Shown piece after piece: positions 2,741 to 58,188 of a DNA stretch of 64,000 bases (positions within the stretch are counted from its first letter, which is position 1; each line of letters opens with the position of its first letter). The position numbers and the translations under genes were made by a program. The DNA comes from Turicibacter sanguinis. GTDB lineage: Bacteria > Bacillota_I > Bacilli_A > MOL361 > Turicibacteraceae. A model generated the notes under the pieces. The model did not search any database, was not told where the DNA came from, and saw only the letters and a program-made list of their open reading frames with translations. Location of the stretch: the NCBI RefSeq assembly GCF_013046825.1, contig NZ_CP053187.1, positions 857,501 through 921,500 on the forward strand, in the 5' to 3' direction.

Positions 2741-3991
2741 TTACTCGACAAATTTCTTTGCAATGTCTAGTCTGTAGAACAAATCATCACAAGTAATTTT
2801 TTCTATTTGTCGATAAACATTAGTTCGAGCTTTGTCTAAAGTTTCACCACTTCCAACAACAAAGAGAACGCGTCCACCGTTTGTTGTATAGTCTCCATCT
2901 ACTAATTTAGTTCCCATGTGACAAACGTCTACATCTTCCAGTAAATCAAGACCTTTAATAATTGCGCCTTTATTATAATTTCCTGGATAACCTTTAGCGG
3001 CTAACACAACTCCAACAGTTGGTTTATCTGACCATACACACTCGATTTCTTTCCCCTCAAGCAGTGATAACATGATTTCAGAAAGGTCTGTCTCTAAACG
3101 AGGAAGTAGCACTTCCGTTTCTGGATCTCCAAAGCGAGCATTGAATTCAATAACTTTAATACCTGACGATGTTTTCATTAATCCAGCATATAAGATTCCC
3201 GTAAATGGTATATTTTCAGCAATCATTGCCTTCGTCATTGGTCCAATAACCATTTTAATCGCTTCCTCATAATCTGATTCCAAAATAAGCGGATGTGGAC
3301 TGTGATTCCCCATTCCTCCTGTGTTCAACCCTTCATCATTATCATATGCACGCTTATAATCACGTGCAATAGGCATTGGGTTATAAAGTTCATTTGCGAC
3401 AAAAGCCATTAACGAAAACTCTTCACCTTCCAAGAACTCCTCGATCACTACTTTCGAAGAGGCCTCATCAAACTGACGATATAATAACATTGATTCTAAA
3501 GTCTCAATTCCTTCTTCTAATGTTTGACAAATAACTACACCTTTGCCAGCAGCTAGTCCATCTGCTTTAATAACAATTGGCATAGACTGTGTTTTTAAAT
3601 ACTCAACCGCGGGCTCAAATTCTGTAAATTCTTTATATACTGCCGTTGGAATATTATATTTTGACATCATCTGCTTAGCAAAGGCTTTACTGCCTTCAAT
3701 TAAAGCTGCTTCTTTAGTTGGGCCAAACACTTTTAATCCTTTTGAATTGAAACTATTAACAACTCCCGCTACAAGAGCCATTTCTGGCCCCACTATGGTT
3801 AAATCAATTTGATTTTCCAACGCAAAGTCAGTAAGTGCCGCTACGTTTGTTTCCTCAATTGGTACTAAAGTTGCCTCAATCATTCCATCATTTCCTGGTG
3901 CACAGAAAATTTGAGAAACTTTTTTATCGCGCATTAATTTTTTTATGATGGCATGCTCACGTCCCCCACGCCCAATAACTAAAACTTTCAT
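2741..3991 (-). CDS. purD: phosphoribosylamine--glycine ligase (GAR synthetase)
   Basis: Second step of de novo purine synthesis: joins glycine to phosphoribosylamine with ATP. 416 residues, normal for PurD. N-terminal MKVLVIGRGGREHAI is the family hallmark; the ATP-grasp core has IVIKADGLAAGKGVVI (near residue 137), GGMGNHSPHP and EFNARFGDPE, all expected. The start is preceded by GGGAGAAATTT. It is the last gene of the purine run, 24 bp after purH, and is followed by a hairpin. Confidence 0.97.
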   Translation of the reverse strand: MKVLVIGRGGREHAIIKKLMRDKKVSQIFCAPGNDGMIEATLVPIEETNVAALTDFALENQIDLTIVGPEMALVAGVVNSFNSKGLKVFGPTKEAALIEGSKAFAKQMMSKYNIPTAVYKEFTEFEPAVEYLKTQSMPIVIKADGLAAGKGVVICQTLEEGIETLESMLLYRQFDEASSKVVIEEFLEGEEFSLMAFVANELYNPMPIARDYKRAYDNDEGLNTGGMGNHSPHPLILESDYEEAIKMVIGPMTKAMIAENIPFTGILYAGLMKTSSGIKVIEFNARFGDPETEVLLPRLETDLSEIMLSLLEGKEIECVWSDKPTVGVVLAAKGYPGNYNKGAIIKGLDLLEDVDVCHMGTKLVDGDYTTNGGRVLFVVGSGETLDKARTNVYRQIEKITCDDLFYRLDIAKKFVE

Positions 3992-4015: not shown

Positions 4016-5548
4016 TTAATGTTTAAAATGTCTTACTTTTGTAAATACCATCGCAATTCCAAATTTATTACAAGCATCAATAGAATCTTGATCTTTAATC
4101 GATCCACCTGGTTGAATGATTGCTTTAACTCCATATTTAGCAGCTAATTCAACTGTATCCGACATCGGGAAGAAAGCATCTGATGCTAAATATGAACCTG
4201 ATGCCAATTCATTAGCTTGTTCAAGTGCAATTTTAGCCGCACCGACGCGATTCATTTGGCCTGCACCAACTCCTACAGTCATATTATCTTTCACTAAAGC
4301 AATCGCATTCGACTTCACATGTTTTACAACTTTAAATCCAAATAATAATTGTTCTAAGTCTTCTTGTGTTGGTTTTACTTCTGTTACACATTCTAAGTCT
4401 TCAAGTGTTACTTCTAGTGTGTCTAAGTCTTGTTGTAATAATCCACCTTTAACTGTTGTTAATTTATGTCCTAGTTGACGACGATTTGACATGTCTGTTG
4501 TTAATAGGCGGATATTTTTCTTTTGTTTTAAAATTTGTAATGCTTCTTCTGTAAAACTTGGTGCAATAATAATTTCTAAGAAGATTTTATGAAGTTCTGT
4601 TGCTACTTCTTTGCTAACTTCACGGTTAAGAGCAACAATTCCACCAAAGATTGACGTTGAATCTGCTTCATATGCTTTTGCATAAGCTTCCTCGATTGTT
4701 GATCCAATTCCAACACCACATGGATTCATATGTTTTACCGCAACCGCTGCTGGTGCTTCAAATTCAGCTAAAATTTCAAGTGCCGCATTAGCATCTGCAA
4801 TATTGTTGTATGACAATTCTTTTCCATGTAATTGTTCACTCGCCACTACACTGTAAGATGGTTTTTCTAATGTTTGATAAAATGCTGCTGACTGATGTGG
4901 ATTTTCTCCATAGCGTAATGATTGTTTTAGGTCGTATGTAACAGTAAGTTTTTCTGGAATTTCAATTTCGTTGATTTGATTAAAGTAGTTTGCAATCATT
5001 GCATCATAGGCTGCTGTATGATTAAATACTTTTCCAGCTAATTTTTGACGCGTGTTTAAGGTTGTATTTCCATGTTCACGAATTTCATCAATAATTTGAT
5101 CGTAATCTTTAACATCTACAACGACTGTTACGTCATTAAAGTTTTTAGCTGCAGAACGTAGCATTGAAGGTCCACCGATATCGATGTTTTCAATTTTATC
5201 TTCATGTGTTGATTCAGGATTTTGAATTGTTTTTGCAAATGGATATAAGTTAACACAAACTAAATCTATGTACTCGATGTTGTTTTTTGCTACTTGTTGT
5301 TGGTGATATTCATCACCACGTTTTGCTAATAGACCACCATGAACTAATGGATGAAGCGTTTTGACACGTCCTTCTAAAATTTCCGGGAACCCTGTCACCT
5401 CGTCAATGGAAATAATATTCATTCCCGCTTCTTCTAATGACTTTTTTGTTCCACCTGTTGAAATAATATCGTATCCTAATTCAATTAAATTTTGTACAAA
5501 TGGCACTAAGTTTGTTTTATCTGACACACTTACTAATGCACGTTTCAT
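4016..5548 (-). CDS. purH: bifunctional AICAR transformylase / IMP cyclohydrolase
   Basis: Last two steps to IMP. 510 residues. The N-terminal MGS-like cyclohydrolase domain (about 1-150) shows ALVSVSDKTNL, ISTGGT and GRVKTLHP. The C-terminal AICAR formyltransferase part has LRYGENPHQSA and KHMNPCGVG, the latter in the folate/AICAR site. It uses the 10-formyl-THF that the first gene of this operon (fhs) makes. A strong AGGAGG ribosome site precedes the ATG. Spacing to purN is 14 bp, so cotranscription is expected. Confidence 0.97.
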   Translation of the reverse strand: MKRALVSVSDKTNLVPFVQNLIELGYDIISTGGTKKSLEEAGMNIISIDEVTGFPEILEGRVKTLHPLVHGGLLAKRGDEYHQQQVAKNNIEYIDLVCVNLYPFAKTIQNPESTHEDKIENIDIGGPSMLRSAAKNFNDVTVVVDVKDYDQIIDEIREHGNTTLNTRQKLAGKVFNHTAAYDAMIANYFNQINEIEIPEKLTVTYDLKQSLRYGENPHQSAAFYQTLEKPSYSVVASEQLHGKELSYNNIADANAALEILAEFEAPAAVAVKHMNPCGVGIGSTIEEAYAKAYEADSTSIFGGIVALNREVSKEVATELHKIFLEIIIAPSFTEEALQILKQKKNIRLLTTDMSNRRQLGHKLTTVKGGLLQQDLDTLEVTLEDLECVTEVKPTQEDLEQLLFGFKVVKHVKSNAIALVKDNMTVGVGAGQMNRVGAAKIALEQANELASGSYLASDAFFPMSDTVELAAKYGVKAIIQPGGSIKDQDSIDACNKFGIAMVFTKVRHFKH

Positions 5549-5562
5549 CTCTCTTCATCCTC

Positions 5563-6123
5563 CTAAATATTTAGCAATTGTTTAATGACAGTTGGATATA
5601 GCTCATGTTCTAAGTCATGAATTTTTTGCTCTATTTCTTCTCTTGTCTCTAACCCTGTACGTTTAAAACAAACTTGGTCAATAATCATCCCTGTATCAAT
5701 ACCTGAATCAACGTAATGAACAGTCACTCCCATAATTTTAACCCCATATTTTAATGCGTCTGTGATTCCATCCCGACCAGGAAAAGCTGGTAATAATGCA
5801 GGATGGATGTTAATGATTTTTCCTTCGTAAACATCTAATAAAGTTTGACCAACAATGCGCATGTAGCCTGCTAAAACAATTAAATCTGGGTTAAGGGGGA
5901 TTAACTGAGTACAGATTTCTTGTTCGAAGGCTTCTTTACTAGAATATTCTTTTGAATTAAAAACGAAGGTTGGAATGTTCATTTTATGAGCTCTTTCAAT
6001 GCAATAGGCACCCGGTTTATCACAAACAAGCAGTGCTACTTCGCAGGCTTGTTTATGTAATTTTTCAACGATAGTTTGAAAGTTACTACCATTCCCTGAA
6101 GCAAAGACAACTATTTTTTTCAT
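5563..6123 (-). CDS. purN: phosphoribosylglycinamide formyltransferase (GAR transformylase)
   Basis: Third step of purine synthesis: transfers formyl from 10-formyl-THF to GAR. 186 residues, normal for PurN. The catalytic set is visible: [13 protein letters not shown] carries the Asn and His, and [10 protein letters not shown] carries the Asp. N-terminal ASGNGSNFQ binds the phosphate. The start codon overlaps the purM stop by four bases (ATGA), so translation is probably coupled. No formate-dependent purT is in the window. Confidence 0.97.
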
Positions 6124-17036: not shown

Positions 17037-17151
17037 AATAGTTAAATGTAACTCTAAAGAATTATATTAGGTAAGTTAAATAAAGCCTTCATCGAGACTA
17101 TTTTTGCTTTCACTAACATATGACTTTGCGATACACTTTATTATTAGACAA

Positions 17152-17220
17152 CCTTCATAGTCCCTGTATTTACGGTAAGGGGTAGAAACTTTCGAACCAT
17201 ATTATCGATGATATATGAAT
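17152..17220 (-). ncRNA. purine riboswitch aptamer (guanine type)
   Basis: The minus strand carries the conserved core: ATATGG, GTTTCTACC, a CCGTAAA loop and GACTATGAA in order. P1 pairs TTCATA (17214-17219) with TATGAA; P2 is UCGA/UCGA; P3 starts CCCU/AGGG. The discriminator base that follows P3 is C (GACTAT), which in this class selects guanine or hypoxanthine; adenine switches have U (GATTAT). It sits 438 nt upstream of fhs with a terminator in between, so ligand binding should stop transcription of the purine operon. Confidence 0.93.
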
Positions 17221-17226
17221 GCTGTG

Positions 17227-17255
17227 ATTTTTATGTGATTTACTGTAGGTATCAA
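17227..17255 (-). promoter_or_regulatory. weak candidate promoter just upstream of the riboswitch
   Basis: TTGATA (17250-17255) and AAAAAT (17227-17232) are 17 bp apart on the minus strand, placing a start about 10 bases before aptamer P1. The -10 is poor. If real, the riboswitch transcript starts here rather than at the stronger promoter at 17438-17466. Confidence 0.3.
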
Positions 17256-46584: not shown

Positions 46585-46690
46585 CTCTTATCAAGAGCGG
46601 CGGAGGGACAGGCCCTGTGATGCCCGGCAACCATCAATTAATGATACGGTGCCAATTCCTGCAGATTTTTATCTGACAGATGAGAGAAAG
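46585..46690 (+). ncRNA. SAM-I (S-box) riboswitch
   Basis: CTCTTATCAAGAG, GGCGGAGGGAC, GGCCCTGTGATGCCC and GGCAACC appear in order, then GGTGCCAATTCC and the closing AGATGAGAG of P1. This is the standard S-box core. It lies upstream of the methionine ABC transporter genes and is followed by a terminator, so high SAM should stop transcription. Confidence 0.96.
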
Positions 46691-56088: not shown

Positions 56089-56149
56089 AAACGATTTAGC
56101 AATATTATTTAAAATTACAATTTTATTCAAACTCATTCGTCTCTCACTC

Positions 56150-56176
56150 ACCATATTAAACTTTTATCATATGCTA
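56150..56176 (+). promoter_or_regulatory. candidate sporulation (sigma-K/E-like) promoter for the cotJ cluster
   Basis: CATATGCTA (56168-56176) fits the sigma-K -10 CATANNNTA, with AC at 56150-56151, 16 bases upstream, as a minimal -35. In Bacillus cotJ depends on sigma-E. Match by eye only. Confidence 0.35.
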
Positions 56177-56273
56177 GAATTAGGCAAAGATGTTGCCAAT
56201 AAGTAATGAATTTCTAATAAATTTGGAGGATTTTATTAGTTTTAATTACTGTTTAATATGGAGGTGCAAACCG

Positions 56274-57293
56274 TTGATTTATAATTCGAATTCTAATCAG
56301 TCACGTGCCTGTGGAGGTTCTAACGTAGCTGCAATGCCATTTTATCAACCTATGATGGCTTCTCAGCCTATGGTACAACCTACTATGGTACAGCCTATGA
56401 TGGCTTCTCAAGCTATGGCCCAACCTGTTATGATGCAACAACCTATGATGACTTCTCAAGCTATGACCCAACCTGCTATGATGCAACAACCTATGATAGC
56501 TTCTCAAGCTATGACTCAACCCGCTATGATGCAACAACCTATGATGACTTCTCAAGTTGTGTCTCAGCCTGCTATGATGCAACAGCCTATGATGACTCCC
56601 CAAGCTACGGTTCAACAAGCTGTGACTCAACCAAATATGGTTGATAATACCCTTAGTTACGACCAAAATATGACTCAACCTAACTATCAAAATGCAATGA
56701 TTTCTACACAATCAATGCCTCTTGCTAGTTATCCAGCATACGGTACTGCTTCTATTTATAGTAGCCAAGTTGGAATGCCAACTAATCAACTTGTAACAAC
56801 ACAAACGACTCAATCAGTTCCAGTTGCACAGAATCAATCTACGACTACCCATCATAAAAAAACAACTTATGTTGAAACTTATGCGCAACCATGTACAAAC
56901 CAAGAACCTGTAAGTAATCAAATAACAACAACCAAAACGACAACTGAGAAATATCCACTAACCGGTAATATGGTTTATAGCGTTCAACAACAACCAAAAG
57001 GTTCAACTATGCAAGACTATAACTTATACTTGCTAGAAAAAGAATACTATGGTGATGATACCGATCAACCTGTGTATACTAAAACACAATCTTATCGAGA
57101 TGGTCGTGCTGATGGATCACCACTCATCTCTTGCGATAATATTCCACTCGCAACTAGTTGTGTTAAAATGCAATCTTATCAAAATTTAAATGATTCTACT
57201 AATACACTTCAACAAGGAACTGCCTTTGCAGATTTATACATGCCTTACACTCCTAGAAAAGTTCCTGTAAGAGGAGGTAACCGCTATGAATAA
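56274..57293 (+). CDS. cotJA: CotJA-like spore coat protein with Met/Gln/Pro repeat extension
   Basis: 339 residues if started at TTG 56274, which has GGAGGTG seven bases upstream; an ATG at 56190 in frame lacks a ribosome site. Residues 42-120 are 16-residue repeats of the type MMTSQAMTQPAMMQQP (four full, one decayed). A Gln/Thr/Tyr-rich middle follows. The last ~50 residues (IPLATSCVKMQSYQ then TLQQGTAFADLYMPYTP) resemble CotJA, which is normally only about 80 residues. cotJB overlaps its end by eight bases and cotJC follows, so this occupies the cotJA place. The fusion is inferred from the tail and position. Confidence 0.7.
   Translation: MIYNSNSNQSRACGGSNVAAMPFYQPMMASQPMVQPTMVQPMMASQAMAQPVMMQQPMMTSQAMTQPAMMQQPMIASQAMTQPAMMQQPMMTSQVVSQPAMMQQPMMTPQATVQQAVTQPNMVDNTLSYDQNMTQPNYQNAMISTQSMPLASYPAYGTASIYSSQVGMPTNQLVTTQTTQSVPVAQNQSTTTHHKKTTYVETYAQPCTNQEPVSNQITTTKTTTEKYPLTGNMVYSVQQQPKGSTMQDYNLYLLEKEYYGDDTDQPVYTKTQSYRDGRADGSPLISCDNIPLATSCVKMQSYQNLNDSTNTLQQGTAFADLYMPYTPRKVPVRGGNRYE
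56397..56634 (+). repeat. 48-bp tandem repeat inside cotJA-like gene
   Basis: Four nearly identical 48-bp units (56397-56588) and a diverged fifth encode a 16-residue motif. Copies differ at a few third and some first positions. The unit number could vary between strains by slippage. Confidence 0.9.
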
Positions 57294-57534
57294 AAACGAA
57301 CTACTACGTAACATCCAAGCAATCAGTTTAGTTGCAGTAGATTTAAGACTTTTTCTCGATACACATCCAGGCAATCAAAAAGCACTAGCTGATTACAAAA
57401 ATGCTACTGCTCAATATCAATCATTAAAAGATCAATACGAAAAAGAATATGGTCCACTCCTTAATTTCGGTCACAGTGATTTAACAGGAAAGTATAATTG
57501 GATAGATGAACCATGGCCATGGAAAAATAAATAA
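57286..57534 (+). CDS. cotJB: spore coat protein CotJB
   Basis: 82 residues. The LRNIQAISLVAVDLRLFLDT opening and DTHPGNQKALADY match CotJB; PLLNFGHSD and the WIDEPWPWKN end are also typical. It has GAGGAGG upstream and overlaps the preceding gene by eight bases, so they are translated together. Role: coat component needed for CotJC incorporation in Bacillus. Confidence 0.94.
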   Translation: MNKNELLRNIQAISLVAVDLRLFLDTHPGNQKALADYKNATAQYQSLKDQYEKEYGPLLNFGHSDLTGKYNWIDEPWPWKNK

Positions 57535-57548
57535 GGGGGACATATTAA

Positions 57549-58139
57549 ATGTGGGTATATGAAAAAAGATTACAAATTCCAGTGGATATAAAAAAACGTG
57601 ATTTAAAAATGGCTAAAGATATTTATGATGCCCTAGGAGGTGCTGATGGAGAATTAACTGCTTCAATGGAATATCTTCATCAACGTTATACAATGCCAAC
57701 AGGACAATCAATTGCAACTTTAACCGATATTGGTACCGAAGAATTAGCTCATCTTGAAATTGTGGCCTCTTTAATTTATCAGTTAACAGATGGTGCAAGT
57801 ATTGAGGAAATTAAAGCTGCTGGTCTTGATACTAGCTATGCAGGACGAGGAACAGGGATTTTCCTAGCTGATCCAAATGGCGTTCCATGGAATGCAGGTT
57901 ATGTCGCACTTAAAGCTGATCCAGTAGCAGATTTAACAGCTGATATGGCGGCTGAACAAAAAGCAAGAGCAAGTTATGAACATTTACTTGATTTAGCTAC
58001 AGACGAAGATGTTCGTCAGGTACTAAGTTATTTAAGAGAACGAGAAGTTGTTCATTTCCAACGTTTTGGAGAAACATTAATGAATGTTCAAAATCATTTT
58101 GAACATGACCGTTATTTCTTTATGAATGATCAAGATTAA
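57549..58139 (+). CDS. cotJC: spore coat protein CotJC (manganese catalase family)
   Basis: 196 residues. MWVYEKRLQIPVDIK, GADGELTASMEYLHQRY and GTEELAHLEIVASLI carry the first Glu and ExxH ligands; later EQKARASYEHLLD and REREVVHFQRF give the second set, so the dimanganese site looks complete. CotJC proteins in clostridia have catalase activity. GGGGGA ribosome site, 14 bp after cotJB; a terminator follows. Confidence 0.95.
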   Translation: MWVYEKRLQIPVDIKKRDLKMAKDIYDALGGADGELTASMEYLHQRYTMPTGQSIATLTDIGTEELAHLEIVASLIYQLTDGASIEEIKAAGLDTSYAGRGTGIFLADPNGVPWNAGYVALKADPVADLTADMAAEQKARASYEHLLDLATDEDVRQVLSYLREREVVHFQRFGETLMNVQNHFEHDRYFFMNDQD

Positions 58140-58155: not shown

Positions 58156-58188
58156 AAAAAAAAGCTTCCATCTAGGAAGCTTTTTTAT
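58156..58188 (+). terminator. cotJ cluster terminator
   Basis: AAAAGCTTCC pairs with GGAAGCTTTT around a 5-nt loop, T-run after. Confidence 0.9.

Follow-up and report, generated by a model that had tools for sequence, protein, structure and literature searches.

CotJ proteins are widespread spore-coat components whose roles are poorly understood. In the stretch of Turicibacter sanguinis DNA that was analysed (64 000 nucleotides, hereafter the window), the gene lying ahead of cotJB and cotJC encodes 339 residues, and this locus raises the question of whether the product is a genuine CotJA protein and what its long N-terminal extension might do on the spore.

A long protein ending in a CotJA domain

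The operon in the window is composed of the following features.

56274..57293, + strand: extended cotJA, TTG start, 339 aa
56346..56607, + strand: 48-bp tandem array, 5.5 copies, encoding 16-residue Met/Gln/Pro repeats
56835..57071, + strand: conserved block, residues 188-266, TTxxHKKTTYVExY...QDYNLYL..EYY
57144..57248, + strand: CotJA domain (PF11007), residues 291-325
57286..57534, + strand: cotJB (PF12652, E 9.5e-28), overlapping the end of cotJA
57549..58139, + strand: cotJC, Mn catalase family (PF05067, E 1.5e-48)
58158..58186, + strand: terminator-like hairpin at the operon end, 12-pair stem and T-run

The protein was compared with the Pfam profile PF11007, which has a curated cut-off of 25 bits. 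The whole 339-aa sequence scored 25.4 bits (E 1.3e-5) and the CotJA tail alone 28.7 bits (E 1.2e-6), with all 35 of the 35 profile positions aligned to residues 291-325. The open reading frame and its CotJA-like end, as described in the first-pass annotation, are both borne out, the latter by the very profile comparison that the annotation had proposed. The size of 339 aa stands against about 50-100 residues for CotJA, a range that is typical and not strictly defining, and the long form is therefore classed as a protein with a CotJA domain in a new architecture. Pfam matches to Extensin_1 and SURNod19 were weak, lay far under the cut-off and were set aside as low-complexity noise. The long protein matched no NCBIfam family, a search of solved structures found nothing related to the CotJA tail, and a single-sequence AlphaFold model of the long CotJA (mean pLDDT 34.8) carried no structural information. 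The long protein is a genuine CotJA-domain protein, a variant of known CotJA with a genus-specific architecture.

A GGAGG Shine-Dalgarno sequence at 56260-56264 lies nine bases 5' of the TTG start, and alignment shows the same MIYN start in three sister species. An in-frame ATG at 56190, which would give a product of 367 aa, was rejected as the start because both the MIYN start and the Shine-Dalgarno sequence are kept across the sister species.

The annotation had also placed the protein next to a manganese catalase coat protein, and a genuine cotJB followed by cotJC is indeed found directly after the long cotJA. CotJC matched only Mn catalases among solved structures, and in an alignment with known Mn catalases it keeps the residues aligned with the metal ligands and metal-binding stretches, which makes peroxide handling beside the long CotJA plausible as far as the alignment can indicate. 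The CotJ proteins belong to the inner coat, and a mutual influence of CotJA and CotJC has been reported (PMC5061772).

A second, ordinary cotJABC operon in the same genome

When PF11007 was searched against the window's genome, a single contig of 3.0 Mb, it matched in two places only, the second being the following.

G000:C1:2526217-2526321, - strand: ordinary CotJA domain (PF11007), window's own genome

This ordinary CotJA has 75 residues and opens a cotJABC operon of its own. Because the ordinary operon is present in the same genome, the long CotJA counts as an extra copy, and its operon is a second, paralogous cotJABC operon. The earlier statement that the 339-residue protein holds the place of cotJA is therefore correct for the operon in the window but not for the genome, which also has the ordinary set. 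The annotation had named a normal cotJA elsewhere and a tail lacking a profile match as the signs that would count against its reading; the first was found, whereas the tail does match the profile. Short and long operons stand in tandem in one sister species, and only the long form was found in two others. In a CotJC tree the two copies from short operons grouped together (82/99), but the resolution was too low for the operon duplication to be dated.

A gene for a divergent Mn-catalase-like protein that shares 34% identity with CotJC was also observed directly after the ordinary cotJABC (G000:C1:2524627-2525181, - strand). In a sister species a gene of this type stands alone elsewhere (G002:C1:415464-416018).

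Conservation of the long form within Turicibacter

All four Turicibacter members with CotJA have a long form (339, 328, 277 and 311 residues), and it always lies 5' of cotJB-cotJC. The N-terminal extension is about 290 residues in the window and 224-290 across the genus. The layout is the same in the four species: a MIYN(PYN) start, a charge-poor stretch, a Tyr- and Lys-containing block of ~80 residues with 34 invariant columns, and the CotJA domain. Over the block and the CotJA domain dN/dS was 0.23-0.46 with dS about 1; by this sequence measure, both are under purifying selection. A SulP transporter lies downstream in 4/4 species and a MATE transporter upstream in 3/4.

CotJA was present in 37 of 395 Bacilli genomes, and frames of >200 aa occurred only in Turicibacter. 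Longer CotJA frames outside the genus, where readable, proved to be either fusions of CotJA with CotJB or frames that take in upstream codons. Searching 392 Bacillota genomes with the block gave no convincing match outside the four Turicibacter members; one marginal match elsewhere in this set contains an internal stop and looks like chance. A scan of genome contigs with the long protein recovered no long relative, and only Clostridium muellerianum was found, through the CotJA part. A related genus has a CotJA of 116 residues that begins MYFNPYQ and carries a short Gln/Pro/Tyr-rich front, and this protein is a plausible intermediate.

The long CotJA shares with that of Bacillus subtilis (cotJABC, PF11007) the CotJA domain, the position as first gene before cotJB and cotJC and a mother-cell-type promoter motif. 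It differs from the B. subtilis protein (about 80 aa) in its length of 339 aa with the CotJA domain at the C-terminus only, in the extra conserved block and Gln/Pro-rich front, and in belonging to a second operon copy. The fusions of Clostridium muellerianum (L007) likewise place a CotJA domain in a longer cotJ-operon frame, but there CotJB is added at the C-terminus, whereas in Turicibacter the addition is N-terminal and CotJB is a separate gene.

A divergent gene beside the cotJ operon of C. muellerianum (L007 4986-5627, - strand) encodes a Met/Gln/Pro-rich protein (MMQQPMMQQPMMQQMP) with Gly/His- and Tyr-rich repeats after that part. It matched no Pfam or NCBIfam family; its composition is like that of the repeats in the window, but it is a separate protein.

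The 48-bp array and the composition of the front

Tandem Repeats Finder reported the array at 56346-56607 with a period of 48, 85% matches and a score of 335, by far the strongest in the 64-kb window. Read in frame it gives PMMTSQAMTQPAMMQQ, with the unit pattern PMM(T/A)SQAM(T/A)QPxMMQQ, and the 16-residue Met/Gln/Pro repeats from 48-bp units noted at first reading were thus confirmed. The richest 100-residue stretch of the long CotJA holds 25 Met and 24 Gln; the other long open reading frames in the window reach 9 or fewer at their Met/Gln peak per 100 residues.

In a four-species alignment the array and the strong Met enrichment were confined to the window's species, in which Met makes up 16.6% of the front stretch as against 10, 5 and 5% in the three sister species. 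The charge-poor stretch itself is common to all four species, where it spans 119-187 residues with Gln at 16-18.5%, Pro at 11-20%, Lys at 0-2% and Glu at 0-1%, and its length and sequence vary freely. The repeats are probably a spacer expanded at the level of this species. Self-assembly would also be compatible with the low charge of the front and its Gln content.

A possible role for the extension

A promoter motif precedes the gene.

56149..56176, + strand: sigma-K-like promoter, CACC, 15 bases, CATATGCTA

The pattern CAC[ACT]-N15/16-CATANNNTA occurred once per 10-12 kb locus, at the same place, in 4/4 species, and agrees with the sigma-K consensus (AC, 16-17, CATANNNTA). As B. subtilis cotJ is described as sigma-E controlled in the title of a reference in PMC8745062, the late timing of long CotJA suggested here is motif-based only.

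With some reserve, we favour a reading in which the CotJA tail fixes the protein to the CotJ layer and the extension serves as a disordered spacer that offers a conserved segment for docking. The long CotJA would be made by the mother cell late in sporulation, and its tail would bind CotJC/CotJB and become part of the coat. The disordered spacer would be the front, rich in Gln and Pro and almost without charge, whose exact length and composition would matter little; specific contacts with a further coat layer would be made by the block beside the CotJA domain and by the invariant MIYN at the N-terminus. In this way the long form might widen or link the CotJ layer, alongside short CotJA or, in two sister species, in its place. 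A structural or surface role for the Met/Gln-rich segment, as the first-pass annotation had suggested, is plausible. An elaboration of CotJA kept throughout a genus, and sometimes the sole CotJA, provides a natural experiment for finding out what CotJA anchors.

Chemical roles were also considered. Tyrosines of the block and front might be oxidatively cross-linked (dityrosine) as the coat matures, with CotJC adjusting the peroxide level. Every long CotJA has 20-23 Tyr, Tyr makes up 9-10% of the block against a background of 3.6%, and the notion that coat proteins become oxidatively cross-linked is accepted; however, no cross-linking enzyme was identified at the locus, and the invariant tyrosines may be mere contact residues. 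Tyrosine cross-linking appears unlikely, yet among the chemical rivals it ranks first, since the number of Tyr stays constant and these residues cluster in the block.

The annotation's oxidant-absorbing idea, in which the Met-rich repeats would act as a sacrificial methionine sponge beside the CotJC catalase, proved weak. The peak of 25 Met per 100 residues and the residues in CotJC aligned with Mn-catalase ligands would suit it, but the sister species lack the array and have less Met in the front. As the enrichment is not conserved, such a sponge is at most a species-level addition, and we consider it improbable as the role of the extension.

It is equally improbable that the extension as a whole is neutral low-complexity sequence, grown by replication slippage and tolerated. 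An array present in one species only and a front differing freely in length and sequence are what such growth would leave, but the block, the MIYN start and the composition have been kept in four species ~one synonymous change per site apart. Slippage is likely to be true for the 48-bp array itself and not for the whole extension.

Least probable is a form of the cross-linking put forward at first reading, in which the spore-coat transglutaminase (Tgl) would join Gln and Lys of the extension and so harden the coat: a Gln-rich front and Lys in the block are present in 4/4 species, but PF20085, the Tgl family, had no match in five Turicibacter genomes while the B. subtilis control was positive. 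This result disfavours the idea for the Tgl family, the one transglutaminase type that the search covered.

A structured leader and group I introns at the Shine-Dalgarno sequence of coat genes

Comparison of the upstream regions yielded a lead more novel than the repeats, of which only the empty site lies within the window.

56178..56259 (or 56178-56262), + strand: 5' leader with two hairpins, directly after the promoter-like motif, common to four species
Between 56264 and 56265, + strand: empty intron site, GGAGG then TGCAAAC (56260-56270)
L008 ~3299-3697, L009 ~5383-5793, L010 ~3247-3655: sister-species cotJA introns, no ORF
G000:C1:2971400-2971730 (L012, L024): cotZ intron of the window's own genome, RF00028 E 2.3e-23

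The second of the two hairpins has the invariant loop of the leader, TTGGAGGA at 56223-56230 (the UUGGAGGA loop), on stems varying in a compensated way. Folding z-scores were -2.0 for the window and -4.1, -3.4 and -3.9 for the three sister species, and 6 of 20 consensus pairs showed a kept two-sided change. Each genome has a single copy of the leader, at extended cotJA, which speaks against an element of a wider regulon. Its hairpins are kept with or without the intron; its role may be to act as a standby site for ribosomes or to decoy the guide sequence of the intron.

No Rfam riboswitch was found beside the leader or the intron. Elsewhere in the window, a SAM (S-box) riboswitch (46585-46686, + strand) and a purine riboswitch (17138-17238, - strand) scored above the Rfam gathering score.

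Each of the three sister species has a group I intron (399-411 nt) placed exactly after the GGAGG Shine-Dalgarno sequence of extended cotJA, with full-length matches to the RF00028 covariance model (E 7e-20, 1e-19 and 2e-15). In the predicted fold the CCUCC guide of the intron pairs with GGAGG to form P1. The window's genome has its own intron at cotZ (PF10612, E 2.6e-15), between Shine-Dalgarno sequence and ATG, the same position as at cotJA; it is 73-75% identical to the sister-species cotJA introns, and the cotZ site is empty in four sister genomes. RF00028 matches were found in 16 of 395 Bacilli genomes, and none of the other orientable matches in this set had GGAGG at the intron start.

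At the sister cotJA genes and at cotZ, excision is exact only if the 5' exon ends in G. A final G in the 5' exon is published for group B IStrons, one of which, BcISt1, splices in vivo behind such a G, and a Turicibacter intron with a GGAGG site is on record (Tourasse et al. 2014; PMC4227781). The introns described here share with that published group IA2 intron and with group B IStrons the preceding GGAGG, the U start, the G-ending 5' exon and exact empty sites. They differ from IStrons in being 399-420 nt without a transposase ORF, and from the introns of that paper in that the site is the Shine-Dalgarno sequence of two spore-coat genes; a text search of the paper gave no hits for ribosome binding sites, start codons or spores. 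In the c-di-GMP-II riboswitch/group I intron of Clostridium difficile, as described by Lee et al. 2010 according to PMC3984707, splicing brings a ribosome-binding site before the start codon. Both systems have structured RNA upstream of the intron, and in Turicibacter splicing would likewise set a ribosome-binding site beside the start codon, but the introns described here have no adjacent c-di-GMP aptamer or other Rfam riboswitch, the leader hairpins are kept where the intron is absent, and the host genes are spore-coat genes.

Translation of these coat genes might be licensed by self-splicing, the Shine-Dalgarno sequence being hidden in P1 and held apart from the start codon until splicing, with the UUGGAGGA leader modulating splicing or ribosome loading and the window carrying an intron-free cotJA allele. 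We regard this scheme as rather doubtful, and the intron may just as well be an almost neutral passenger. The introns nevertheless provide a testable case of a mobile ribozyme possibly joined to sporulation control in a common gut commensal. The cotZ intron ends in UAAGG, seven bases before the ATG, and this end could be a weak ribosome-binding site; strict dependence on splicing at cotZ is doubtful because UAAGG could itself serve ribosomes. The end of the intron at cotJA offers much less of a ribosome-binding site than at cotZ.
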